From contig NZ_RBWU01000007.1 of the NCBI RefSeq assembly GCF_003634705.1, forward strand, positions 496,001 to 560,000: DNA of 64,000 nucleotides, given 5' to 3'. Each line of letters opens with the position of its first letter. Positions within the stretch are counted from its first letter, which is position 1. The translations under genes were made by a program, and so were the position numbers. Below the pieces are notes generated by a model that saw nothing but the letters and a program-made list of their open reading frames with translations, was not told the origin of the DNA and ran no database searches. This document shows, one piece after another, positions 810-27,223 of the stretch. The DNA comes from Actinomadura pelletieri DSM 43383 (GTDB lineage: Bacteria; Actinomycetota; Actinomycetes; Streptosporangiales; Streptosporangiaceae).

Positions 810-2087
810 TCAGCCGGCCAGGGCGGGGGTTCGGCCGGTTTCGTGCTCCGCCTCGTCCAGTTCGGCGACCAGGTCGACGTCCGGCTCCGGCTCGACCTCC
901 TCGGCGGGCAGCACCCGCTGGTAGGCGCGGAGCGTCTCGGCGGCGGTCCGCTCCAGCGAGTACCGGGAGCGGGCGCGGTCGGCGGCGGCGATCGAGTAGC
1001 CGTGCAGTGTGGTCTCCTCGTTGAGCAGGTGCCGGATCATGCGTCCGATCACGACGGGACGTCCCGCGGGGACGTGCACGCCGGTGATGTGGTCGAGCAC
1101 CTCGTCGGCGTTGCCGCCCGCCGGGGTCGCGACGACGGGGACGCCGCAGGCCATCGCCTCCAGCGGCGCCGCCGGGCACGGCTGGTGCGGGGACAGGCAC
1201 AGCGCGAGGCTCGCCGTGCGCAGCAGCTTCGGCAGCGACTTGCGGGGCAGCCGCCCGAGGAAGATCACCCGATCGTTGACGTGCAGTTCCTTGGCGAGCA
1301 GCACGAGCCGGTGCACGACCGGATCGTTCTCCAGGTCCTCGCGGGCGGGACCGCCCGCGACGGTCAGCTCGGCGTTCGGGACGTGCACCAGGGCGCGCAG
1401 CGCGGTCGCGACGTCCCCGGCCTCCAGGTCGCCGCACACCATCACCAGACGGCGCCGGTCGCCGCGCGGCATCGCCGGTCCGACCTGCGTGAACAGGTCA
1501 CCGTCAACGCCATAGGGGACGACGCGGATCCGGGGGCGCGGCACGCCCGTCCGGACGAGCGCGTTCGCCTCCTCGACATGCCCGGCGAGGACGATGTCGG
1601 CGTCCCGCGCGATGGCCTTCTCCAGCCGGTCGCGGTGCGGGTGGACGGGGAGCCCGGCGCGCCGCTCGGTGGCGGCCACGCCGTGGTAGCTCTGGGCGAA
1701 GGGGATGCCGAGTTCGCGGGCGACGGCGCAGGCGGCGATCCCGCCGATCCAACCGTGCGCGTGGACGATGTCGGGGCGACCGGCCCCGCTCCAGCGGCGG
1801 CGCAGACCGTCGGCGAACTCGCGGAGGTGCTTCAGCAGCTCGTCGTCGGGAAGGGGGCGGGCGGGCCCGGCGTCGAGATGGACCAGTGCGGCGCCCGGCG
1901 CCAGCCGGGTCCGGGCACGCGCGGCCTTGTTCTGGCGCCGGGCGTACACCGTGACCTGGTTCGGCTCACCTTCCGCGGAGAGCGGACGGGTCAGCGAGCG
2001 GGCGAGGTCGCGTACGTGGACCGAGTGGAGGTGCTCGCCGTCAAGGTCGGAGGCGGACACGAGTGCGATGTTCAACGGGCGGTGCAT
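810..2087 (-). CDS. GT4-family glycosyltransferase
   Basis: Retaining glycosyltransferase of family GT4 (GT-B fold), transferring a sugar from a nucleotide-sugar donor to an unidentified acceptor. The ATG at 2087 is chosen because GGAGG lies six bases upstream; an upstream start at 2108 would add seven residues without a ribosome site. The roughly 425-residue protein has the N-terminal acceptor domain with HAHGW near residue 120, a family-typical linker VVPYGVDGDLF, and a C-terminal donor-binding domain with PLEAMACGVPVVATPAGG, which carries the EX7E-like signature. No signal peptide or membrane helix is visible, so it should act in the cytoplasm or at the membrane face. Close relatives include MshA-like enzymes, but the length and isolated position do not allow assignment to mycothiol synthesis. 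It is followed by a strong hairpin, so it is probably monocistronic. Confidence 0.9.
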   Translation of the reverse strand: MHRPLNIALVSASDLDGEHLHSVHVRDLARSLTRPLSAEGEPNQVTVYARRQNKAARARTRLAPGAALVHLDAGPARPLPDDELLKHLREFADGLRRRWSGAGRPDIVHAHGWIGGIAACAVARELGIPFAQSYHGVAATERRAGLPVHPHRDRLEKAIARDADIVLAGHVEEANALVRTGVPRPRIRVVPYGVDGDLFTQVGPAMPRGDRRRLVMVCGDLEAGDVATALRALVHVPNAELTVAGGPAREDLENDPVVHRLVLLAKELHVNDRVIFLGRLPRKSLPKLLRTASLALCLSPHQPCPAAPLEAMACGVPVVATPAGGNADEVLDHITGVHVPAGRPVVIGRMIRHLLNEETTLHGYSIAAADRARSRYSLERTAAETLRAYQRVLPAEEVEPEPDVDLVAELDEAEHETGRTPALAG

Positions 2088-2266
2088 ACGGATCCTCCGG
2101 GGCAACACAGGGGAAGCACGGAGGTATCTGCGTCGTAGACACCTGCTCGATCAGACTCTTATCCGGCCACACCTACCGTCAAACCTCGCGAATCGGATCT
2201 CCTGCCCCGCGCGGCCCGCCGATCCGCCTCCGACCAGCGAGGACACCGGACGAGATCCCTGACCGA

Positions 2267-3949
2267 TCAGGAGACGACGGGGAGGGTGATCGCGGACGGA
2301 TGGGCGGGGGAGTGGAAGATCTCCTGGTCCGCGGTGAGCATCTCGGTGGCGGCGCCGATGGGCGCGCCGGTGCCGGGGTTGCGGGCCACGCGGGGGTAGG
2401 CGCCGCTGGCCACCTGCACGCGGACACGATGCCCGCGGCGGAAGCGGTGACCGGCGGGCCACAGTTCGACGGCGATCCGCCGGACGCCGTCCGGCCCCGG
2501 TTCCGGTGAGCCGGGGACGAGCCGGCGCATGCCCTCGCACAGGTTCATCGACGCGCCGTCGGGGGTGACGTCGCACAGCCGGACGACGAAGTCGGTGTGC
2601 TCGCGGTTCGAACGGATGTGCAGGTCGGCGGTGACCGGGCCGATGATCTCCAGATCCTCGTCGAGGACGTCGGAGGTGTAGGTCAGCACGTCCCTGCGAC
2701 GTTCCAGGCGCCGCTGGTCGGTGGACGGGTGCGTCTCGCCGAGCAGGGTCGGCCCGCCGAGGAACGGCGTCGGGTGGTTCGGGTCGTACCGGTAGGTGTC
2801 GGGCCGGTGGGTGTCGGGCCGGTGGGCGTCGGAATCGGACTCGGAATCGGACTCGGGCGGCGCCTCGGGGGACAGGGCGCCGTCCTCGCGCAGGTGCCAG
2901 CGCTCCTCCCGCATCCCGGGGACGGGCCAGTCGGGGAACTCCCGCCACTCCTCCGCGCCGGTGACGTACAGCCGGACGGGCTGTTCCCGCAGCTGGGACG
3001 GGTCGTCCAGCAGGTGGGCGCGGAACCAGGCGATCGACTCGCCGATCGAGCCCCGCATCATCCGCTGGTCGGCGTGGAACCACGGCCCGATCGTCAGGTA
3101 GGGGCGGCGGCCGGCGGCGCGGAGCGCGGCGTAGTCCTTGATCTGCCAGGGCAGGAAGATGTCGTACCAGCCGCCCGTCATGTTCACCGGCGCCGTGACC
3201 TGGGAGACGGTCGGGCTGAAGTCGCGTTTGTCCCAGAACGGGGTATCGGGGCCGTTGATGAGGAGGTCCTGGAAGAAACGCTGCTGCGCGCCGGTCGCGA
3301 GCCGGTCGAGTTCGGCGAGGGGACGCCCGGACAGGGTGGCGCGGCGGGCGCGGCGCGGCGACAGCACCGCGGTCGTGATGCCGGACAGGGAGTTCTTCAT
3401 CCGCGCGGTCATGTCGACCCAGATGAGGGCCGACTCCAGCGCGAACGCCCCGCCGACGTTCACCGCGTCACGGAACGTGGACGCGGTGACCTGCATCGAC
3501 AGCGCCCGCAGCGCGGGCCCGGCCTCGGCGGCGACGGCCCACTGCACATAGCCGAGGTAGCTCGGGCCGTGCATGGCGAACGTTCCACCGAACCACGGCT
3601 GTGACCGAAGCCACTCGACGGTGGCGAGGCCGTCCTCGCGCTCGTCCAGCGCCTCGAACACCCCGCCGGACCCGAAACCGCCGCGGACGCTCTGCACCAC
3701 GACCTGGAACCCGTGCGACGCGAAGCCCTGCCCGCACATCAGCCCGAACGGCCCGCGCCGCCCGTAGGGGGAGCGGACGAGCACCGTCGGCGCCCGCTCG
3801 ACGCCCTCGGGGGCGTAGTGGTCGGCCAGCAGGGTGACGCCGTCCCCCGCGGGGACCTCCAGGTCCCGTTCGACCGTGACGCGGTGGGGGCCGTTCCGCA
3901 GTCCCAGCGCCGTGACCCCGAGCCGGCGCATCATTCCCACGCCTACCAC
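2267..3949 (-). CDS. CocE/NonD family (S15-like) hydrolase
   Basis: Alpha/beta hydrolase of the X-Pro dipeptidyl-peptidase/cocaine esterase class (S15-like, CocE/NonD). The N-terminal catalytic domain shows the expected order: VRSPYGRRG, the nucleophile elbow GPSYLGY (Ser near residue 135), an acid-containing GGWYDIFL, and GPWFHAD with the likely catalytic His. A C-terminal beta-sandwich (residues about 360-555, with FVVRLCDV and GHRFRRGHRVRVQV) matches the family's jelly-roll domain. Before it, residues about 385-420 hold an Asp/Ser-rich low-complexity linker with repeated SDSES and HRPDT units, encoded by short DNA repeats. The physiological ester or amide substrate is unknown. The start may be this GTG or the paired ATGs 15-18 bases further in; the ribosome site is ambiguous. 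No signal peptide is seen. Confidence 0.9.
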   Translation of the reverse strand: MVGVGMMRRLGVTALGLRNGPHRVTVERDLEVPAGDGVTLLADHYAPEGVERAPTVLVRSPYGRRGPFGLMCGQGFASHGFQVVVQSVRGGFGSGGVFEALDEREDGLATVEWLRSQPWFGGTFAMHGPSYLGYVQWAVAAEAGPALRALSMQVTASTFRDAVNVGGAFALESALIWVDMTARMKNSLSGITTAVLSPRRARRATLSGRPLAELDRLATGAQQRFFQDLLINGPDTPFWDKRDFSPTVSQVTAPVNMTGGWYDIFLPWQIKDYAALRAAGRRPYLTIGPWFHADQRMMRGSIGESIAWFRAHLLDDPSQLREQPVRLYVTGAEEWREFPDWPVPGMREERWHLREDGALSPEAPPESDSESDSDAHRPDTHRPDTYRYDPNHPTPFLGGPTLLGETHPSTDQRRLERRRDVLTYTSDVLDEDLEIIGPVTADLHIRSNREHTDFVVRLCDVTPDGASMNLCEGMRRLVPGSPEPGPDGVRRIAVELWPAGHRFRRGHRVRVQVASGAYPRVARNPGTGAPIGAATEMLTADQEIFHSPAHPSAITLPVVS

Positions 3950-15359: not shown

Positions 15360-16020
15360 GTGAACGGGCGGGGCGGGTTGGACGTCATCGGCGTGCACGA
15401 CCGGCTGATCGAGGACTATTCGAGATACACCTCCTCCCTCGTCCAGGTCCGTGACGTGAAGATCGCCGAGCATCTGCGGCACGAGCATGAGGACAAGGTC
15501 CACTGGCCTCCCACTGCGCACGCTTCTTCCGCGCGAAGAAGCACGAGTCCGACGATGGCGCCCGCACGCTCACCCTTCACCAGCACCAGCGGGACGCGAT
15601 CGAGACCGCGAAGTCAGGTGACAGCTACGTCCTGACGACCGGCACCGGGTCCGGCAAGACTGCGGGACGCCCTGCGACGTGCCCGGCCTCCAGTGTGTCG
15701 GCACCTCGGCCACCATGGCGAAGGGCGCGACGTTCGCAGAGGCCCGAATGCGGATCGCGGCCGTCGCGTCCAGGCTGTTCGGCGCGGACGTGCGACCGGA
15801 CCGGGTGATCGGTGAGACCCTGCGCCGCGCCACGACGGAGACCGACCCGTCCCCGGACGACCTTCGCGCCGCAATGACCGCCGTCCTGGAACAAGGCCCG
15901 GCCCGCGCCTACGAAGCCCGGACCGCTGACCCGCTGTTCGGGTGGATCGAGACGACGTTCGGCCTGCGCACCGAGGACGACAGGTTCGTCCGCCGCCGCC
16001 CCCGCACGCTCCCGAGTGCC
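15360..16020 (+). pseudogene. Remnant of a DEAD/DEAH-box helicase (defence-type)
   Basis: Three pieces of one helicase in different frames. (1) 15360 to about 15510: N-terminus with VHDRLIEDYSRYTSSLVQVR. (2) About 15515-15660, in another frame: RTLTLHQHQRDAIETA followed by the P-loop LTTGTGSGKT. (3) 15679 onward, in a third frame: the SAT motif VGTSATM (motif III), then ASRLFGADVRPDRVIGETLR and WIETTFGL. The segment between P-loop and SAT motif (motifs Ia-II, including DEAH) is deleted, and the whole C-terminal RecA domain is gone. The N-terminal sequence is of the type found in large helicases of actinobacterial anti-phage loci beside Eco57I-like methyltransferases. Assignment to DISARM, BREX or another named system cannot be made. 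Not functional. Confidence 0.75.
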
Positions 16021-16401
16021 GCAGGGGATATGGCCGCCTTCGCCCATGAACCGGGAGACAGCACTGCGCCGTTCGTGTGGGATGAGGGACGGCGGTTCGC
16101 GATGCAGGCTGAGTTCGATGCCGCCTACTCTCACCTCTATGGCGTCAGCCGTGATGATGCGGACTACATCATGGACAGCTTTGGGGCGTTTCGGCGCAAC
16201 GATCCCGAGCGGTTCGCGCGTACCAAAACGCCGATCTCGGATGTCTACGATGCAATGGCGCAGGCGATGGAGACGGGAGAGCCGTACGAGACCATCCTTG
16301 ACCCGCCCCGGAGAAGGGCCGCGCCATCCAGACAGGTGGGCGCGGACGGCCAAGAGATGCCAGCGGCCTTGGTACGAGTCGAACTCGTCCAAGGCCACTG
16401 A
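16021..16401 (+). pseudogene. C-terminal remnant of an Eco57I-like DNA methyltransferase
   Basis: In frame with the last helicase fragment, but unrelated to helicases, is the C-terminus of a large N6-adenine DNA methyltransferase. It reads PFVWDEGRRFAMQAEFDAAY, SHLYGVSRDDADYIMDSFGA, FRRNDPERFARTK, then YDAMAQAMETGEPYETILDPP. This tail is characteristic of PglX/DrmMI/Eco57I-type enzymes. A +1 shift after ILDPP puts the natural ending (GEGPRHPDRW) in another frame. The N-terminal catalytic part (SAM-binding and NPPY motifs) is absent. Helicase and methyltransferase pieces were apparently joined by deletion of everything between them, so this is a relic of a defence locus. Confidence 0.75.
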
Positions 16402-16413
16402 TGTTCGGAGGGG

Positions 16414-16608
16414 TCAGAAACCGTCAGTGCGGATCGCCTGGAGGAAGGTCCGCCATTCGTCCCTGGTGAACTCCAGAGTTGGGCCCTTGCCCTGAAGCTT
16501 GGTGTCGCGGATGCCGATGGTGCCCCTGTGGCCACGGGTCACCTCGACGCACCCGCCGTCAGGGTTGCTGTGCCGTGACTTGCGCCAGCCGTGGAAGGTC
16601 TTCGTCAC
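16414..16608 (-). CDS. DUF397 domain protein
   Basis: Small 64-residue DUF397 protein with the family signature WRKSRHSNPDGGCVEV near residue 7, IGIRDTK in the middle and a C-terminal LEFTRDEWRTFL. DUF397 proteins accompany XRE/DUF5753 regulators throughout Streptomyces-like actinomycetes; members such as BldB affect development, but no general biochemical role is known. The GTG at 16608 follows GGATTGGG. It lies 13 bases downstream of a second DUF397 gene, with which it forms a tandem pair behind the regulator. Confidence 0.9.
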   Translation of the reverse strand: MTKTFHGWRKSRHSNPDGGCVEVTRGHRGTIGIRDTKLQGKGPTLEFTRDEWRTFLQAIRTDGF

Positions 16609-16621
16609 GTACCCAATCCTG

Positions 16622-16810
16622 TCAGGTGCCACGACGAATGTGCTCGAGGAGACGAGCCCATTCGGCCGGTGAGAACTCGAGGATGGGGCTGTGGTGAAGC
16701 TTGGTGTCGCGGACTCCGATGGTTCCGTGGATTGCTCGGCCCACCTCGATGCAGTGGCCGTTGGGTTCGCTGTGGCGTGACTTGCGCCAGCCGTGGAAGT
16801 GCTTGGTCAT
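16622..16810 (-). CDS. DUF397 domain protein (second copy)
   Basis: A 62-residue DUF397 protein very similar to its downstream neighbour: FHGWRKSRHSEPNGHCIEV, IGVRDTK, and LEFSPAEWARLLEHI. The two probably arose by tandem duplication. The ATG at 16810 is 14 bases after the stop of the XRE/DUF5753 regulator, consistent with one transcript for regulator and both small proteins. The ribosome site is weak. Confidence 0.9.
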   Translation of the reverse strand: MTKHFHGWRKSRHSEPNGHCIEVGRAIHGTIGVRDTKLHHSPILEFSPAEWARLLEHIRRGT

Positions 16811-16824
16811 GTGTCCGATTCTGT

Positions 16825-17688
16825 CTAGTCGGTGAGCCGGTTGGCTACCCGATCGAAGAAGGCGATGCTGTCCTCGGTGGATAGCGCGACCTCCCGGAGG
16901 CGGTCGTATATTCCGGTATACCGGGCCACCTCGCCGCGTTGGGTAACCACGAGATCCGTGGTAACGGTGTCGACGATTGCGATGGGTGGGTCGGCCGGTT
17001 CGGCGAACTTGTACAGGTAGAAGGATGACTTCGGGAGGAAGCCTCCAGGGATGCGGGCGCTGTGCAGCAGCACCCGAACCGTGATCCGCGCGTCGTCTGA
17101 GACCGTCGTGATCATGTGCCGGAGTTGGGCGATCATTACCCGTGGCGGTACGGCCAAGCGGTGAATCACGCACTCGTCCAAGATGGTCTCGTAGGACGGG
17201 CCGTCCGGTCTGAGGAGTTCGCGCTGCCTGTGCTCGCGGGCTTCGGCCATCCGTTCTGGCTGGTAGTCGAGAGTCCTGTGACTCTGGTCCAGTTCGACGA
17301 GAGCCTTGATGAACGGACGGCACTGGAGCGCGCCGGGCATCGCGGTCTGATCGTAGCTGCGGACGGTCTTGGCGTTGTACTCCAGGTCCGCCGCGAGCTT
17401 CTGCCTGGGGCCCATGGACATGCCGTACCGGTCCCACCAGCCCTTCTGAGCGGCCTCGTGAGCGAGCTTGATGAGTCTGTCGTACTCGCTGCCGGTGATT
17501 TCGAGGAGGTTGAGCATGTTCATGATTTCGGCGAGGTCCGGGCGGCCCTGGGCGTTCTCCAGCCGGGAGACCTTTGAGCGGGTGTAGTACATGAGATTGG
17601 CTAGGGCGTCGGCCGTGAGGCCACGGCTCTCGCGGAGTTTGCGGATCTCGACCGCCAACTGACGGCGGCGGACGTAGGGGCTTGGCAT
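16825..17688 (-). CDS. XRE-family regulator with DUF5753 domain
   Basis: Transcriptional regulator of 287 residues. Residues about 10-65 form a Cro/C1-type helix-turn-helix (LAVEIRKLRESRGLTADALA then RSKVSRLENAQGRP). Residues about 95-280 are the DUF5753 domain, shown by YGMSMGPRQKL, the YETILDECVIHRL segment, the MIAQLRHMI helix and ITVRVLLHSA. The ATG at 17688 follows GGGAGGA. In actinomycetes these regulators are typically linked to DUF397 partner proteins, as here. Target genes are unknown. Codon use and GC content are somewhat lower than in the flanking core genes. Confidence 0.92.
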   Translation of the reverse strand: MPSPYVRRRQLAVEIRKLRESRGLTADALANLMYYTRSKVSRLENAQGRPDLAEIMNMLNLLEITGSEYDRLIKLAHEAAQKGWWDRYGMSMGPRQKLAADLEYNAKTVRSYDQTAMPGALQCRPFIKALVELDQSHRTLDYQPERMAEAREHRQRELLRPDGPSYETILDECVIHRLAVPPRVMIAQLRHMITTVSDDARITVRVLLHSARIPGGFLPKSSFYLYKFAEPADPPIAIVDTVTTDLVVTQRGEVARYTGIYDRLREVALSTEDSIAFFDRVANRLTD

Positions 17689-18149: not shown

Positions 18150-18659
18150 TCAGACCGTCCCCGAGGAAGGTGCAGCAGACGCCTCGGCCCGCCGCGCCGC
18201 CAACCACTCCTCGGTGTACGCGACCGCCTCATCAATGAACTGCTCCAGCCCCGCCCGACCGAGATCGGCTTCGGTGATGAGGTGGAGGAGGACGTAGACC
18301 TCGACATGAAGGGCGACACTCACGTCGTCCGGGCCACCGTCTTTCAACGGGGGTGCGCCGATGGCGCGGCGGATCATGTCCTCGGCCACGAGCGGGTTGA
18401 TCAGACCCGCCTCCTCGCCAGAATTGATCCGTAGCTCCGCTACGAAACGCACGATGTCGCCTACGGTGTAGATTGGTGCGAATTTTCGGCGCACAGCGAC
18501 GTTAAATGCCCCATAGAGCAGCGACATGTAGCCTGCCGCCGTCTCATCGTCCTTTTGCATCTCGCTTTGTAGGGACGCCCACGTCACCGGCCCCTCCAAG
18601 AGGAACGCCCGTAACGCCAGGATATTTTTCTCGCGAATTTCGACGGCTGAATAGTCCAC
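18150..18659 (-). CDS. Small helical protein A, third gene of overlapping operon
   Basis: Uncharacterised soluble protein of 169 residues, predicted mostly helical. Notable blocks are KDDETAAGYMSLLYGAF with VAVRRKF, then a mid-protein GLINPLVAEDMI and a C-terminal EQFIDEAVAYTEEWLAARRAE. It is clearly homologous to the protein at 24838-25332, with well over half the residues identical by eye. It is more distantly related to the preceding gene product, sharing the A(L)LxGAF/LFxAxxRRF and INP/VNPxVAExxI patterns. The GTG start shares its G with the stop of the preceding gene (TAGTG), giving strict translational coupling. No catalytic motif, signal peptide or membrane helix was found. Function unknown. 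Confidence 0.8.
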   Translation of the reverse strand: MDYSAVEIREKNILALRAFLLEGPVTWASLQSEMQKDDETAAGYMSLLYGAFNVAVRRKFAPIYTVGDIVRFVAELRINSGEEAGLINPLVAEDMIRRAIGAPPLKDGGPDDVSVALHVEVYVLLHLITEADLGRAGLEQFIDEAVAYTEEWLAARRAEASAAPSSGTV

Positions 18660-19105
18660 TATTCAAGCATCTCTTCCGCGTCCGCACAAATCTTTCTCAT
18701 GAAGGCATTGAGTTCAGCTTCGTTGTAGCGGGCCTGTGCCACCAAACCGGCCAACAAGATGATTTGGTGGCGTGTAATGGCGCTGCTATCTATCCCGGAA
18801 AGCGAGCCCTTGCCCAGTGCATGCAGGATGATTTGCTCTGCCACGTCGGGGTTTACTTCGTCTGGAGAAGACTCGCTTCTTGCGCGTACCGTAGCGATGA
18901 AGTCGATGACCTCAGAACGATCCGCAACTTTGCCGTCTTTGACAAAGCGCCGCTGGATCGCTTCGAAGAGTCCGGCGGCGAGCAGCGCCGCGTATCCGAT
19001 GTGATCGGTCTCGTCGAGTGCGTTGAACAGCCGAAGGTGCTCTTCTGCGGGTCGTCCCGCGAGTTGAACATGCAGGGCTTCGACTTGCCTATCGTTTATG
19101 GTCAT
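18659..19105 (-). CDS. Small helical protein B, second gene of overlapping operon
   Basis: Uncharacterised 148-residue helical protein, distantly related to A and C. Its blocks are YAALLAAGLFEAIQRRF, then VIDFIATVRARS, VNPDVAEQIILHALG and AELNAFMRKI. The ATG overlaps the stop of the upstream disordered protein (ATGA) with AAGGAAGA as ribosome site, and its own stop overlaps the start of protein A. The three genes therefore form a compact operon. Similar proteins appear to be widespread in actinomycetes as hypothetical proteins, but I know of no assigned function. Confidence 0.8.
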   Translation of the reverse strand: MTINDRQVEALHVQLAGRPAEEHLRLFNALDETDHIGYAALLAAGLFEAIQRRFVKDGKVADRSEVIDFIATVRARSESSPDEVNPDVAEQIILHALGKGSLSGIDSSAITRHQIILLAGLVAQARYNEAELNAFMRKICADAEEMLE

Positions 19106-20910
19106 TCTTCCTTGTTCCTAGATCGTTTCCTCAAGCCGAAACCTAGACGAACTAGTTCCGTCCCCAAGATGACGCTGCCGATGATACCGACCAGCGCGTC
19201 GCCAGCCTTGAGTGGCTGTTCCACGCTGTTGATATGGTCCGAAATGTTACGACCAATGCATGGCTGTGACTTTGGGGGACGTGCATCGAATTGTTCGAGC
19301 GCAGGCTTGGCGGTCTCGTTGACGTCCTTCTTGAAGGTTGGGCCGGCCTCCATCATCTCCCGGCGTAGGTCCCTAGGACTACGTGGCCGCTCGGGGTCTC
19401 GCTCCCGCGGGTCGCGGTCTGCGGGGTCGTCCTCGGGGCGGCGGAGCTCGCCGCGTCCCGGCGTATCGGTGTGAACCTCATGGCGACTCGATGGAATCGG
19501 CTTGCCGTCGCTGTCAACAGGGATGGTGATGCGTTCCTTGTAGCGGCTAGGCTCGATTTCTGTCGACTTTTCTCCATGGGGAGCTAACTCTTTGCCAGAT
19601 TTCGTCGTTTCACCGGATTGGCCGGAGCGTTTAGTCTCTTGGATCGTCGGCTCGGTGTTGTCGTCTTCGGCTTTTTTACCACGGTCGTCGTTTTCGGCGC
19701 CGGGTTCTTGCGCTCCGGTGGGCTGGTCGGTGGTCTGGCCCTCGGGAGCGGATTCCTGTTCGCCGGGCCGGTTGTCGGGTGGGGACGGTGTGTGGTCGGT
19801 GTCCCCGTCCGGGGCCTGCGGGGTGTGTTCGGCGTCGCGTGTCGGCTCTGTGGTGTGGTCACCCGGCCGGGGGTCACCTGGTGTGGTGTCCGGGCGGGCC
19901 TCCGGCTGCCCTGGGGATGCCTGATCGGTGGCCTGTCCGGTCTGCTCGGGCGGGGTTTCGCCGCTGTCGCCCAGAGAGGCGCGTGCGTCCCGGGTGTCCT
20001 GCTCGGTGGTGGCGGGTTCGGGAGCGTCCTGCCGGGGGAGGGGCTGGTGTTCCCGGTCTTGGGGGCGGTCGGCCTCGGTGGTCCGGGCGGCTGGTCCCTC
20101 CTGATCGCGTTCGCCGGAGGCGGTGCGGCTGTCGTCGGAGGTGCCGTCGTCCTTCTGCGGTTCGCTCTGGTCGTTGTCCTGCCTGAGGATCTCGGGTTTA
20201 CCGGCCGCTTCGCCGTTCCGGGATGTGGCGGGCCCGTCCTCACGGTCGGTGGCGGGTTCGGTGCCGTCGGTCTGGCGGTCCTGTGCCGCGTGTTGTTGGG
20301 CTTCGCGGGCACGGGCGAGACTCTCCAGGCGGGACGGCTGCTCGGGTGATCCCGGCATGTCGCGTTTGGGCCATTCGCTGGTGGCGGGCTGTTCGGCCCG
20401 TCCGCTCTCGGACCCGGCTTCGCTGTTACCGGAGTCGCGGTCCTTGCCTTCGGGTGTCTGGGCGGCGGCGGGTTCGTCGTCGCGGTCCCGTCCGGCGGTG
20501 GCGCTGGAATCCTTGGTTTCGCCCCGCTGGGTTCCGTTGTCCTGCTGGGCCTCACGAGCTCGCGCTTGGCTTTCCAGCCGGGACGGCTGCCCGGGTGATC
20601 CCGGCATGTCGCGGTACTGCTGGTCGCGCGGGCCGGGCCGTTCGCCCCCACCTTCGCCGCCGGAGTCGCGGTCTTTGCCGCTCTCGCGTGGCTGCCCGTT
20701 GGTGGTCTGGGGCTTGTCGTGGCGTTCCCCGCCCGGCGGGCCCCCGTTGTCCTGCTGCGCTTCGCGGGCGCGCGCCCGGCTCTCTAACCGGGACGGCTGC
20801 TCGGGCGAGCCGGGATTGTCGGCCGGGGGCGTGTACGGCCGTTCGGACGAGGATGACTTGTCGCTGTTCTCAGTACGGGTGTCGGTCCCGCTGCCCTGCT
20901 CCACGCCCAC
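19102..20910 (-). CDS. Long disordered repeat protein with C-terminal membrane helix
   Basis: First gene of the operon, 602 residues. Roughly the first 480 residues are low-complexity and highly charged (Asp, Glu, Gln, Thr, Pro, Arg), so almost certainly disordered. Three copies of a conserved motif, PGSPxQPSRLESxARAREAQQ, occur near residues 33, 108 and 187, separated by variable linkers. A more ordered basic/acidic stretch follows (SRYKERITIPVDSDGKPIPS, then DLRREMMEAGPTFKKDVNE). The C-terminus carries one hydrophobic segment, DALVGIIGSVILGTELVRLG, ending with a basic RKRSRNKEE tail, which suggests a tail-anchored membrane protein. The GTG follows GGAAGG. The conserved repeats in a disordered chain look like docking motifs for a partner, perhaps proteins A and B. 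No known family recognised. Confidence 0.75.
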   Translation of the reverse strand: MGVEQGSGTDTRTENSDKSSSSERPYTPPADNPGSPEQPSRLESRARAREAQQDNGGPPGGERHDKPQTTNGQPRESGKDRDSGGEGGGERPGPRDQQYRDMPGSPGQPSRLESQARAREAQQDNGTQRGETKDSSATAGRDRDDEPAAAQTPEGKDRDSGNSEAGSESGRAEQPATSEWPKRDMPGSPEQPSRLESLARAREAQQHAAQDRQTDGTEPATDREDGPATSRNGEAAGKPEILRQDNDQSEPQKDDGTSDDSRTASGERDQEGPAARTTEADRPQDREHQPLPRQDAPEPATTEQDTRDARASLGDSGETPPEQTGQATDQASPGQPEARPDTTPGDPRPGDHTTEPTRDAEHTPQAPDGDTDHTPSPPDNRPGEQESAPEGQTTDQPTGAQEPGAENDDRGKKAEDDNTEPTIQETKRSGQSGETTKSGKELAPHGEKSTEIEPSRYKERITIPVDSDGKPIPSSRHEVHTDTPGRGELRRPEDDPADRDPRERDPERPRSPRDLRREMMEAGPTFKKDVNETAKPALEQFDARPPKSQPCIGRNISDHINSVEQPLKAGDALVGIIGSVILGTELVRLGFGLRKRSRNKEE

Positions 20911-21851: not shown

Positions 21852-21968
21852 TGCGGGACGGGGAGCCGCAGTTGTCGGGCGGGGGCGCGTACAGCCGTTC
21901 GGAGGACGCGGGGTCGTCGTAGGTCTTTCAGTGCGGGTCTCGGCGCCGCCGCCCTGCTCCACGCCCAC
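21852..21968 (-). pseudogene. Degenerate copy of the disordered-protein gene's 5' end
   Basis: From 21968 the minus strand reads VGVEQGGGAETRTE, matching the start of the protein encoded at 20910 (MGVEQGSGTDTRTE). After a frameshift it reads SSERLYAPPPDNCGSPS, matching SSERPYTPPADNPGSPE. Nucleotide similarity is obvious across about 115 bp and then fades. It is a relic of a second copy of the operon's first gene, lying about 1 kb upstream of the intact one in the same orientation. Confidence 0.7.
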
Positions 21969-22556: not shown

Positions 22557-22599
22557 CCACCGCAAGGCTCGGCTCATCGGAGCCCGAGCCTTGCGGTGG
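22557..22599. terminator. Perfect 16-bp hairpin
   Basis: Bases 22557-22572 and 22584-22599 form a perfect 16-bp inverted repeat with an 11-base loop. It sits downstream of the small membrane protein (+) and downstream of the truncated minus-strand frame ending at 22639, so it could terminate transcription from both sides. Confidence 0.75.
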
Positions 22600-22638
22600 C
22601 TCCGCCGTTCGGGGCGCCTCGCCCCGCCCGGCGAGCGG

Positions 22639-22761
22639 TCAGTTCTCCTTCGCCAGCAGGCGCGCGCGTACGTCGATCTCCATCGGTTCGTTGGGCGGAA
22701 GCCCGTCGACCGTCCGGGTGGCGAGTAAGTACGTGTACTCGCTCTTCTGGTCCGTGCCAAT
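22639..22761 (-). pseudogene. 3' fragment of an unidentified minus-strand gene
   Basis: The minus strand reads a plausible protein C-terminus, SEYTYLLATRTVDGLPPNEP then MEIDVRARLLAKEN, ending at TGA 22639-22641 just before the 16-bp hairpin. No start exists: the frame enters directly from the truncated mcrB sequence. It appears to be the tail of a gene whose 5' part was lost when the mcrB fragment was joined here. Family unknown. Confidence 0.4.
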
Positions 22762-23555
22762 GCGTCGAACTGCTCCGCGAACGGCCCCAGCTCATCCTCT
22801 ACGGCCCGCCCGGCACGGGGAAGACCTACCTGGCGCGGCACCTTGCCCGCCACCTGACCTTCGGCCGACCGGAGTGCGTCCAACTCGTCCAGTTCCACCC
22901 CGCCTACTCCTACGAGGACTTCTTCGAGGGCTACCGGCCCGCGAAGGCCGACGACGGCACCGTCTCGTTCGACCTGGTGCGCGGGCCGTTCCGCAGGCTT
23001 GTGGCCGCCGCCCTCGCCCACCCGGGACGGCCCTACGTGCTGATCATCGACGAGATCAACCGCGGCGACCTCGCGAAGATCTTCGGTGAGCTGTACTTCC
23101 TGCTGGAGTACCGGGACGACCGGGTCAACGTCCTGTACGGCGCCGCGGACGACCACGGCTTCTCCCTGCCGCGCAACGTCATCATCATCGGCACGATGAA
23201 CACCGCCGACCGGTCCATCGCCCTCGTCGACACCGCCATGCGGCGACGGTTCTGGTTCACCGAGCTCCACCCCGACGCGCCGCCCGTCCAAGAGATGCTC
23301 GCCCGGTGGCTCCACCGGGAGGAGATGCCGGACGAGCCCGCGCGGCTGCTCGCCGAGCTCAACAGCCGCATCGAAGACCGCGACTTCAGAATCGGCCCGT
23401 CCTATCTGATGCGGAACCGCGCGGCCACCGAGGCCGGGCTGGAACGTATCTGGCGAACCCAGATCCTCCCGCTGCTGGCGGAACACCACTACGGTGACGG
23501 CACCGACGTCCCCGCGCGGTACGGACTGGACGCACTGCGCAGTGGGCTGACGTGA
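22761..23555 (+). pseudogene. mcrB: 5'-truncated mcrB: AAA+ GTPase of a McrBC restriction system
   Basis: AAA+ motor of the modification-dependent restriction system McrBC. About 265 residues remain: P-loop LILYGPPGTGKTYLARHLA at the very beginning, then FHPAYSYEDFFEGYRP, Walker B YVLIIDEINRGDLAKIFGE, and the McrB-specific GTMNTADRSIALVDTAMRRR. The C-terminal helical part includes the DFRIGPSYLM block. Normal McrB proteins carry an N-terminal DNA- or ligand-binding domain and a substantial lead before the P-loop. Here nothing suitable precedes it, and no ATG or GTG occurs in frame between the P-loop and upstream unrelated sequence. The motor part is otherwise undamaged. A product from a non-standard start is possible but would lack target recognition. 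Its stop overlaps the mcrC start. Confidence 0.75.
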
Positions 23556-24754
23556 CCGTCGTCCGGCTCCGGGAGAACGGTCCCTGGACCGAGCACGAGC
23601 TCACACCGGAGCAGGTCACCGCCCTGTCCGCGGCCGGGCTGGCGCGCGTCGCGCCGGGGCCGCGCCCCGGGCTGTGGCGGGTCCGCGACAACGGCCTCGT
23701 CGGCGCCGCGAGGGTTGGACCCACGGGCGATCCGGTCGAGATCCGCGTCGAGCCCAAGACGCCCATTGACCGGCTCCTCTTCCTGCTCGGCCACGCCCGC
23801 GGCGTTCGCGGGTGGCGGCAGGAGGAGGTGGACGCCGGAGGGCGGCCCGACCTGCTGCCCGCCCTCGCGCACGCGTTCGCGCGGGCCGCCGAACGGGCCC
23901 TGCGGCAAGGCGTACTGCTCGGCTACCGCGAGACGGAGGAGGCCCTGCCCGTCGTGCGTGGACGCATCCGCGTGGCCGACCAGCTCCGGCGGCGCCACGG
24001 GTTCCCCGTTCCGGTCGAGGTGCGCTACGACGACTACACCACCGACATCCCCGAGAACCGGCTGCTGCTCGCCGCCGCCCACAGGCTCCTCGTCCTGCCG
24101 GGCGTCCCCGCCGCTACCCGTGGGCTTCTCCGTCACCTGTTGATGCGGTTGGACGGGGTGGAACGGCTCGTCCCCGGCCGCCCGCCGCCCGCCTGGAGCC
24201 CGTCCCGGCTCAACACCCGATATCACACCGCGCTCGGGTTGGCGGCCCTCGTCCTGCGCGGAGCGTCCTATGAAGTCGACGACGGCACCACCGTCCGGGT
24301 GGACGGGCTGATGCTGGAGATGTGGCGGGTCTTCGAGGACTTCGTCTGCGTCGCCCTCGCCGAAGCGCTCCGTCCGTACGGGGGCACGGTGAAACTCCAG
24401 GACAAGCGTCACCATCTGGACCGCGCACGCCGGGTACCTCTCCGACCCGACCTCGTCGTCAACACCGCCGACGGGCGCCCCTCGACCGTCGTCGACGCGA
24501 AGTACAAGACCGGGGACACGCCCCAAGGCGACCTGTACCAGGTTCTGGCCTACTGCACGGCGATGAGGCTCGACCGTGGCTATCTGGTGTACGCCTCGAA
24601 AACCGAGACGCACACCCATGTCATCACCGGCACCGACGGTCTTCGGGTCGCGGAGACCGCGCTGGACCTTTCGTCGTCCCCGGACGGGCTCCGCGCCCAG
24701 GTCGAGCGGCTCGCACACCGGATCGCCGCGGTGGATGCCGCCGTCGTACGCTGA
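23552..24754 (+). CDS. mcrC: McrC-like endonuclease subunit
   Basis: Nuclease partner of McrB (400 residues) that cuts DNA containing modified cytosine when recruited by the GTPase. The N-terminal McrB-binding part includes VEIRVEPKTPIDRLLFLLGH. The central part has the RETEEALPVVRGRI and DIPENRLL signatures of McrC (5-methylcytosine restriction component). The C-terminal nuclease shows a PD-(D/E)XK arrangement: LRPDLVV followed by TVVDAKYKTGD, then a Tyr-containing helix DLYQVLAYC. The GTG overlaps the mcrB stop (GTGA). The gene looks intact although its partner is truncated, so restriction activity is doubtful unless another McrB exists. Confidence 0.88.
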   Translation: MTVVRLRENGPWTEHELTPEQVTALSAAGLARVAPGPRPGLWRVRDNGLVGAARVGPTGDPVEIRVEPKTPIDRLLFLLGHARGVRGWRQEEVDAGGRPDLLPALAHAFARAAERALRQGVLLGYRETEEALPVVRGRIRVADQLRRRHGFPVPVEVRYDDYTTDIPENRLLLAAAHRLLVLPGVPAATRGLLRHLLMRLDGVERLVPGRPPPAWSPSRLNTRYHTALGLAALVLRGASYEVDDGTTVRVDGLMLEMWRVFEDFVCVALAEALRPYGGTVKLQDKRHHLDRARRVPLRPDLVVNTADGRPSTVVDAKYKTGDTPQGDLYQVLAYCTAMRLDRGYLVYASKTETHTHVITGTDGLRVAETALDLSSSPDGLRAQVERLAHRIAAVDAAVVR

Positions 24755-24837: not shown

Positions 24838-25332
24838 TCACGGCTGCGTGATCATCTCGGCCCGCCGTGCGGCGAGCCAGTTGCCGGTGTAGGCAACGAC
24901 ATCGTCGATGAACCGGTCCAGTTCGGCGTCGGAGAAACCGGCCTCGGCGACGAGGTAGAGCAGGATGTGGGCCTTGATGCCCAGGACGGTCGTCAGGTCC
25001 TGCGAGCCGTCGTCGTCCAGTGGCGAGGCGTCGACGGTATGGCGGATCACGTCCTCGGCCACCAGTGGGTTGATCAGGCCCGGCTCGTCCTGGTGACTGA
25101 TTCGCAGCTCCGTGACGAACCGCATGATCTCGGCCGCGTCGCAGTTCGGCGGGAACCTTCGGCGCACCGCGACGCTGAACGCCCCGAGGAGCAGGGACAC
25201 GTACCCGGCCGCCGTCTCGTCGTCCTTGCGGAACTCACCGTGGAGGGGCTGCCACGCCGAGGGCCCGTCCAGCAGGAAGTGGCGCAACGCCATGATGTTG
25301 TTATAGCGAATCTCAACCAGCGAATAGTCCAT
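24838..25332 (-). CDS. Small helical protein C, paralogue of protein A
   Basis: A 164-residue protein strongly similar along its whole length to the product of 18150-18659: same opening MDYSxVEIR, same KDDETAAGYxSLLxGAF and VAVRR(K/R)F, same GLINPLVAED and same C-terminal NWLAARRAE. The short DNA before its ATG (GAAAGAGATC...) also aligns with the end of the gene B/start of gene A junction. It was therefore probably copied from, or once belonged to, the same operon, and its gene B was lost. It now stands alone between mcrC and an HExxH gene. The ribosome site is weak (AGAG). Function unknown. Confidence 0.8.
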   Translation of the reverse strand: MDYSLVEIRYNNIMALRHFLLDGPSAWQPLHGEFRKDDETAAGYVSLLLGAFSVAVRRRFPPNCDAAEIMRFVTELRISHQDEPGLINPLVAEDVIRHTVDASPLDDDGSQDLTTVLGIKAHILLYLVAEAGFSDAELDRFIDDVVAYTGNWLAARRAEMITQP

Positions 25333-26502: not shown

Positions 26503-26797
26503 GCTCCCGCCCGATCCGTTTCGACGTGGGTCGGCAGCATTCTCTCCGCGTACTCCCCGAATCTGGCCACGGTCGGTGAATAGGGGAGATAAGAGGACCT
26601 GCGCCATTCGGGAGGACGAAATTTGTACAGGGGAAATTCGGAAGTCTGACGACCGTCCGTACCAATCCTCCGGCCGGGGGCCAGGTGTGCGAATTCTTCG
26701 TGCATGGGCGGCGACATCCTGTGACGATCGATGCGCGGACCTGGGGTGACCCCCGAACGATCCGCAACAGATGTCCGTCACGACCCGAGGTGTTCTG
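26503..26797. other. Divergent promoter region
   Basis: 295 bp between the HExxH gene (minus) and the HATPase gene (plus). It is AT-richer than its flanks, as expected for promoters in both directions, but no operator or consensus box stands out. Confidence 0.4.
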
Positions 26798-27223
26798 ATG
26801 TCCCTGACGATGCATCCGGCAACGGAGTCCGCGCCGCTGTGCTGGCGGCGGTCCTTCCCCGGCGGGGCCGAGCAGGCCCGTGCCGTCCGCCGGTTCGTCG
26901 GCTGCCTGCTGGCCGACTGTCCCTACCTCGACGACGTGCTGCTCGCCGCCGACGAACTCGTCGTCAACGCCCTGCGCCACACCAAGTCCGGGCAGGACGG
27001 CGGCTTCTTCGTCGTCGAGATCGCCAGGGACGGCGGGCGCGTCGCCGTGTCGGTGGCCGACCAGGGCGGGCCCGGCGAGCCCGCCGTGCTCGACGCCGCC
27101 GAGCTCGCCGAGTCCGGGCGCGGGCTGCGCACCGTCTCCCACACGGCGGCGAGCTGGGGCTGGTACGGCAACGACCAGGGCCGTACCGTCACCGCCGTCT
27201 TCGTGGGGAGCTGGGCCGCGTGA
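26798..27223 (+). CDS. ATP-binding anti-sigma-like protein (HATPase_c_2)
   Basis: A 141-residue stand-alone GHKL ATPase of the RsbW/SpoIIAB type common in actinomycetes. It has the N-box LLAADELVVNALRHT, G1 VADQGGPGEP, G2-like ESGRGLRTV and the C-terminal strand TVTAVFVG. Family members phosphorylate anti-anti-sigma factors or sequester sigma factors, but most actinobacterial orphans have no assigned partner. The ATG at 26798 has CGAGG seven bases upstream; an ATG at 26771 is possible. Its stop overlaps the start of the next gene (GTGA), indicating a two-gene unit. Confidence 0.88.
   Translation: MSLTMHPATESAPLCWRRSFPGGAEQARAVRRFVGCLLADCPYLDDVLLAADELVVNALRHTKSGQDGGFFVVEIARDGGRVAVSVADQGGPGEPAVLDAAELAESGRGLRTVSHTAASWGWYGNDQGRTVTAVFVGSWAA

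Follow-up and report, generated by a model that had tools for sequence, protein, structure and literature searches.

What might a compact operon of three overlapping genes, matching no named family, do in an actinobacterial chromosome, and which partners might it work with? The question is raised by a stretch of 64,000 nucleotides from Actinomadura pelletieri DSM 43383 (assembly GCF_003634705.1, contig NZ_RBWU01000007.1, positions 496,001 to 560,000; hereafter the window), which carries the genes A, B and C one after another (Table 1). An earlier note, made from the letters of the window, had read the operon as a membrane-linked accessory module, perhaps related to defence or conflict, and our analysis partly supports that reading as a whole. 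Unforeseen by the note was a partner machine: in other lineages A-B-C is directly linked to genes for a HerA-like ATPase (H), a membrane protein (M) and an M48-type protease (M48), and within the genus the cassette and H co-occur in a near-perfect pattern. We propose that A-B-C is a detachable, duplicating subunit cassette of this HerA-type membrane motor, a reading to which we give an even chance. On this reading, an anonymous overlapping operon becomes a component, open to testing, of a machine with a name, and an unstudied gene family gains a concrete candidate partner.

A putative motor core linked to the operon

The direct link between A-B-C and the core recurs in several lineages. In locus L079, H in reverse orientation is followed by M-A-B-C in forward and M48 in reverse orientation. 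L077 keeps this order, H and M being separated there by an exonuclease-like gene and a second A-like gene; in L081 the order also holds, and about 4.7 kb of other genes, including an XRE-DUF397-like pair, part C from M48; L076 reads M, A, B, C, M48, its H side lying beyond the fetched stretch. The arrangement of M followed by A-B-C was found in Actinoallomurus and some Actinomadura. In L080 and L083, from two other genera, H immediately precedes A, and both genes share one strand.

On sequence grounds, H is a member of the HerA/FtsK superfamily that passes none of the curated cut-offs set for named HerA systems. The H of L079 exceeds the Pfam cut-offs for HerA_C (26.2 bits, cut-off 22) and DUF87 (26.6 bits, cut-off 23.2). 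H carries an intact Walker A motif (GATGAGKS) at residue 319 and finds its best solved-structure match by sequence in a HerA chain (PDB 8xau, E = 6e-8). Against Pfam FtsK_SpoIIIE (cut-off 24), the H proteins of L079 and L083 score 20.6 and 21.3 bits and that of L080 15.3, all below the cut-off; the match to NCBIfam antiphage-HerA reaches 41.9 bits (cut-off 800) and a partial match to NCBIfam CedD 50.9 bits (cut-off 600). M has two hydrophobic segments and a large soluble part, lacks a Walker A motif and shows no known domain above cut-off in Pfam or NCBIfam, and neither it nor the M48 neighbour matched a nuclease or Sir2 domain in these collections. We considered whether M might be an inactive copy of H, and profile comparison gave no support. 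The M48 protein of the window's own genome has HELGH as its HExxH motif and four hydrophobic segments, and its homologue in L079 scores 26.8 bits against a profile cut-off of 20.3.

A paralogous pair, M'-H', occurs on contig C6 of the same genome (L087, 8350-15400), followed by a 612-residue protein with membrane segments recognized by eye. H' has the same Walker A motif at residue 343. Relatives of both were found in nearly all genomes of the genus (H' was not found in G027 at E ≤ 1e-100, and M' was not listed for G033), and the pair might represent a housekeeping form of this machinery.

In the window genome, H, M and M48 lie together on the same contig as the operon, about 370 kb away from it; M is 64% identical to the M of L079, no gene intervenes between M and M48, and no A-B-C stands beside the core. 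Core loci were fetched from 18 of the 26 other H-bearing genomes of the genus sample described below. H and M are adjacent in 18/18, and M48 comes next in 16, being not found in the fetched stretch of the other two. A-B-C or A-B adjoins M in three of them (G015, G019 and G028), and G019 is probably the same record as L081, as their scores are identical. In the window genome and in the other 15 fetched loci, where nothing of the cassette is found beside the core, the link rests on co-occurrence.

Co-occurrence was assessed in the window genome and 59 others of the genus. An orthologue of H (at least 1000 bits; in G050 H is in two pieces) is present in 27/60 genomes, 26 of these 27 also have an orthologue of M, and the B/C family is present in 29/60. 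All 27 genomes with H also have B, none has H without B, two have B without H, and 31 have neither (Fisher's exact p = 4.6e-15). The two exceptions, G007 and G020, each hold an isolated B, and neither C nor an A-like gene was found within 1.5 kb of it. The number of B/C matches per H genome ranges from 1 to 12, with a median of 4. On a protein tree of H' (60 rows, with G027 absent and the outgroup G060 included), the H/B trait changes seven times on the best tree, at least two of these changes being forced by well-supported branches, and a single clade of the 27 H-bearing genomes is rejected by the approximately unbiased (AU) test (p = 6.6e-47).

Products of the operon

The three genes are intact, and the overlaps noticed earlier were confirmed at 4 bp between A and B and 1 bp between B and C. 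Also borne out was the description of A as a disordered protein of about 600 residues with three repeats: it is enriched in P, E, D, R, G and T and carries the motif PGSP(E/G)QPSRLES(x)ARAREAQQ three times, the first copy including columns that are invariant in an alignment of five A proteins from this genome. The C-terminal membrane helix that the note had assigned to A is probable, given a 19-residue hydrophobic segment with a Kyte-Doolittle mean of 1.74 and a tail of charge +3; the net charge of the tail is positive in 28/29 copies and 0 in one. Inspection by eye, rather than by a predictor, found no signal peptide at the start of A. A conserved PPTG motif before the hydrophobic segment led us to consider A as a sortase substrate, a candidate rejected because at least about 15 residues separate the two and the protein shows no signal peptide by eye.

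B and C are homologous helical proteins, as the note had suggested when it called them distantly related. Profiles built from the genome's own copies match each other over 144 columns with a probability of 99.45, and the confident structure models (pLDDT, the predicted local distance difference test, 91.7 for B and 88.4 for C; pTM, the predicted template modelling score, 0.86 for both) have seven helices each, at a size of about 150–170 residues. Comparison of these models with solved structures gave no clear match, with best Foldseek E values of 0.30 for B and 2.8 for C and best VIA-align Z scores of 4.1 and 4.6, respectively. A sequence search of the PDB with an alignment of 45 B/C relatives returned no match, and a viral structure library showed no clear fold for the B model. 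The expectation that no characterized family would match strongly also held: Pfam (E ≤ 1), NCBIfam, PADLOC 2.0.0 (E ≤ 1; 0 families) and PHROGs were all empty for A, B and C, and the lack of any Pfam match at this threshold means that no WXG100, PE or PPE model matches them.

Compared with the orthologous operon of A. spongiicola (L057), the ratio of nonsynonymous to synonymous substitution rates (dN/dS) is 0.41 for A, 0.12 for B and 0.20 for C. These values indicate that the genes are maintained rather than being chance open reading frames (ORFs), and that B and C are under purifying selection.

Copies, relatives and genomic setting

Duplication and decay of the module, put forward in the earlier note together with a membrane tail, are evident in the same genome, where a relic of the A gene remains in the window and four further A-B-C operons lie on contigs C4 (at its end), C10 (at its start), C11 (6.4 kb) and C2, the last with a broken C. 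Their proteins are 27–33% (A, all four), 39–52% (B) and 37–40% (C) identical to those of the window. The starts of C10 and C11 are alike, each with a related exonuclease-like fragment and then an XRE gene, and L073 of A. spongiicola has two operons with exonuclease-like and XRE genes in between. Judging from gene order, the C4-end, C10-start and C11 operons (L023 end, L024 start and L025) are probably one tandem array split by assembly.

The exonuclease-like gene beside an XRE gene in these arrays (L024, 1-237; L025, 1-309; L073, 3347-4024) recurs next to H in L077 (1672-2451); we take it by eye to be of the DEDD type. The second A-like gene, upstream of M and on the opposite strand to it, was seen in both L076 (624-2006) and L077 (2612-3934), and in L057 of A. 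spongiicola an A-like gene without B or C (1528-3162) precedes gene A of the orthologous operon by about 3 kb.

Beyond this genome, a short-pattern search of genome contigs using the B alignment, which is no census, found 27 loci, mainly in Actinomadura and also in Actinoallomurus, Allonocardiopsis and Actinopolymorpha. Nearly all related loci have an A-like ORF directly upstream of B. At least one SRxES-type repeat is present in 22/29 A proteins or fragments examined; the seven without it are five short fragments (238–329 residues) and the two most distant proteins (L080 and L083). A class-wide sample yielded B in 2/394 genomes, including that of the window. A phage or plasmid origin of the cassette was considered and is unsupported, as the B protein found no match in phage and plasmid collections and a pattern search of viral contigs found none either.

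Table 1. Features of the operon and its surroundings in the window
Feature	Coordinates	Strand	Description	Basis
Gene A	20910..19102	minus	GTG start, 602 aa, disordered	ORF and translation
Gene B	19105..18659	minus	148 aa, predicted nearly all-helical	ORF and translation
Gene C	18659..18150	minus	169 aa, predicted all-helical, paralogue of B	ORF and translation
PSRLES repeat copy 1 in A	20752..20814	minus	about residues 33-53	
PSRLES repeat copy 2 in A	20542..20604	minus		read from sequence
PSRLES repeat copy 3 in A	20293..20355	minus		read from sequence
C-terminal hydrophobic segment of A	19138..19194	minus	about residues 573-591, basic tail after	
XRE-family regulator with DUF5753	16825..17688	minus	downstream of C	Pfam HTH_31 and DUF5753 above cut-off
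Small protein, presumably DUF397-like	16414..16632	minus	downstream of XRE gene	clusters with other DUF397-like neighbours; name by eye, not by family search
Second C copy, without A or B	24838..25332	minus		56-57% protein identity to C
N-terminal relic of A gene	21860..21968	minus		78% DNA identity to 5' end of A

The further copies nearby that the note had pointed out, a second C and an A relic, are thus both present (Table 1). Its account of the flanks stands in part. The methyltransferase locus is decayed, with 118 aligned C-terminal residues left of a 923-residue relative (15982-16336). The McrBC locus was called damaged, which is likely but not certain: McrC is nearly full length, and McrB, which matches just the final 265 residues of an 875-residue relative (L061), has an equally short homologue of 287 residues in L063. 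The short McrB and near full-length McrC occupy 22596-24754, beside the second C copy, and the same McrBC type adjoins A-B-C in L061 and L063. An anti-sigma-type ATPase-like gene, of a kind common in actinobacteria, was seen near A-B-C at 26771-27223 of the window and in seven other loci (8/32 sources clustered), and Pfam HATPase_c_2 occurs, in an uncontrolled count, in 6/128 neighbour genes of A-B-C loci.

The surroundings of the dispersed cassettes were compared with random regions of genus genomes. The neighbour set comprised 19 of 21 dispersed loci (an XRE gene is also close to the two omitted loci, L073 and the short L059), and 128/148 neighbour genes were scanned after removal of locus-end ORFs, apparent pieces of A and wrong-strand ORFs. 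A first control (85/92 genes) was contaminated by flanks of A-B-C copies. For the random control, 20 regions of the same mean length were drawn and one overlapping A-B-C was dropped; all of its 193 genes were used in the XRE, UvrD, McrBC and methyltransferase comparisons, and 142/193 in PADLOC, with L191, L192 and nearly all of L190 missing. Relatives of the window's XRE-DUF5753 gene occur in 12/19 dispersed loci compared to 0/19 random regions, often with a DUF397-like gene after them. L061, L063, L082 and the window have McrB or McrC relatives; L058, L065, L066 and L069 have UvrD-type helicases; and L062, L065 and the window have methyltransferase relatives. Genes of one or more of these four types are present in 8/19 dispersed loci compared to 0/19 random regions, a comparison that favours the dispersed loci, since A-B-C loci supplied the query proteins. 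PADLOC returned 144 families among the 128 neighbour genes, including UvrD-like (up to four members), type II restriction (three), PglW (two) and type I methylase (two) families; 44 matched among the 142 random genes, and most of those listed came from one gene hitting many PD-T4-6 models. Overlapping PADLOC models inflate such counts, and the clustering with defence genes suggested earlier is therefore seen as a moderate signal. A and C also differ in composition from H and M, with a GC content at third codon positions (GC3) of 0.75 compared to 0.91.

Proposed mechanism and alternative explanations

In the mechanism that we favour, H, M and the M48-type membrane protease would form the motor core. 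The C-terminal segment of A would serve as a membrane anchor, and A would present a long disordered arm with short conserved motifs; B and C would most likely pair as a folded adaptor. Different cassettes may deliver different targets or trigger signals to the shared motor H, which would act on whatever a cassette brings; such a division of labour would account for the presence of several diverging cassettes per core. We infer that these proteins assemble into a physical complex with the stated topology of A, the B-C pairing and adaptor role, and a setting in conflict. We further infer that the linked arrangement came first and the dispersed one later, such that in most core-bearing Actinomadura the cassette would have moved away from the core, become multi-copy and diverged, with a single H orthologue retained. 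A conflict or defence role for the cassette is plausible and would be the most likely setting. A more far-reaching claim, possible in our view and held with considerable doubt, is that the dispersed cassettes, each a membrane-anchored disordered scaffold with a homologous helical adaptor pair of a so far unmatched fold, are interchangeable specificity modules of one protease-bearing chromosomal motor in an undescribed conflict or defence system. If true, this would be a new way of giving one motor many specificities, and B and C would add a protein family without a matched fold.

Several observations weigh against the cassette being part of this motor. In L077 two genes separate H from M, in L081 other genes separate C from M48, and M and M48 were not found within the L080 and L083 loci. 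The cassette is absent beside the core in 15/18 fetched genus loci and in the window genome, and the core-bearing G015 has A and B beside M, no C and no other B/C match. Profile comparison recovered no M-H relationship, and many copies of A have a weak hydrophobic segment (range 1.13–1.94). As to the setting, the defence enrichment is moderate, its PADLOC control is partial, and that control also has one PglW match. Fisher's test takes no account of relatedness, and the tree provides just two independent pairs on well-supported branches; both agree, a number that cannot reach significance in a sign test. The case thus rests most firmly on the recurrent direct linkage combined with the almost perfect co-occurrence.

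The basic tail of A also weighs against a motor subunit: under the positive-inside rule, the long P/E/D/T-rich arm could lie outside, which would favour an export role. H-M-M48 might then be an exporter, with the dispersed cassettes as cargo processed by the M48-type protease. Duplicated PE/PPE and Esx pairs serve as substrates of mycobacterial ESX systems, and a core that includes a membrane protease, with multi-copy and diverging cassettes for one H orthologue per genome, would suit such a role. We nevertheless regard export as rather unlikely, given that A, B and C match no WXG100, PE or PPE model, that A shows no signal peptide by eye, and that A-B-C sits inside the core locus in the linked loci, as expected of subunit genes. 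A machine for chromosome handling, division or sporulation in hyphae, with stage- or site-specific cassettes, appears improbable from the distribution of its parts: H and B are both absent in 31/60 genus genomes, B is present in just 2/394 class-wide, and copies decay, several of them near restriction genes. Such a housekeeping role would nonetheless fit the membership of H in a superfamily of DNA pumps (FtsK/HerA) and the paralogues H' and M' in nearly all genus genomes, which suggest a housekeeping relative. It would also fit the XRE-DUF397 pairs, which in Streptomyces regulate differentiation and antibiotic production according to two reports (PMC10364602, PMC6262351).

The cassettes might also be selfish or toxin-antitoxin-like elements moving with XRE-DUF397 pairs, the H-M link being ancestral and non-functional in the window lineage. 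Duplication, decay, XRE neighbours, the lower GC3 of A and C and the persistence of a lone B without H in G007 and G020 all accord with this. However, no B-C pair was found in any genus genome without H, a confinement unexpected for an independent selfish element; moreover, B and C are conserved by selection, and no copy was found by the protein search with B in phage and plasmid collections or by the pattern search in viral contigs. We thus consider a selfish origin quite improbable, and the subunit cassette of a HerA-type membrane motor remains our preferred reading.

Comparison with known systems

Among known kinds, the proposed machine comes nearest to HerA-based defence complexes, to type VII secretion with its orphan cassettes and to DNA import ATPases. 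Anti-phage complexes built on HerA, such as HerA-DUF4297 and HerA-Sir2, are described in two papers (PMC11291478, PMC12198126). H resembles them in its HerA/DUF87-type ATPase region and its best structure match. The present core differs in having a membrane protein and a protease, and H stays far below the antiphage-HerA cut-off. Neither the M48 neighbour nor M, which shows no known domain at all, matched a nuclease or a Sir2 domain. Among the matches listed in open-licence titles and abstracts, no such HerA-cassette system appeared. With A, B, C and M falling in no named family, the machine would be a HerA-class motor system with new components.

XRE-DUF397 pairs of actinobacteria have in common with the window operon and many of its copies the XRE-DUF5753 and DUF397-like genes beside them; these are neighbours outside the overlapping operon, and A, B and C match neither family. 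Ced, a crenarchaeal DNA import system with an ATPase, shares with the present system the partial CedD match of H, which is far below the family cut-off, and A, B, C and M match no NCBIfam family of a Ced partner. Type VII (ESX) secretion combines orphan PE/PPE/Esx cassettes with a motor of the FtsK-HerA class, membrane partners and a protease. The system described here differs from it in the seven-helix B and C proteins, in the absence of WXG100, PE or PPE matches for A, B and C, and in an H below the FtsK_SpoIIIE cut-off, and resembles it in motor class, membrane partners, protease, paired small helical proteins and the dispersed, duplicated pairs per core.

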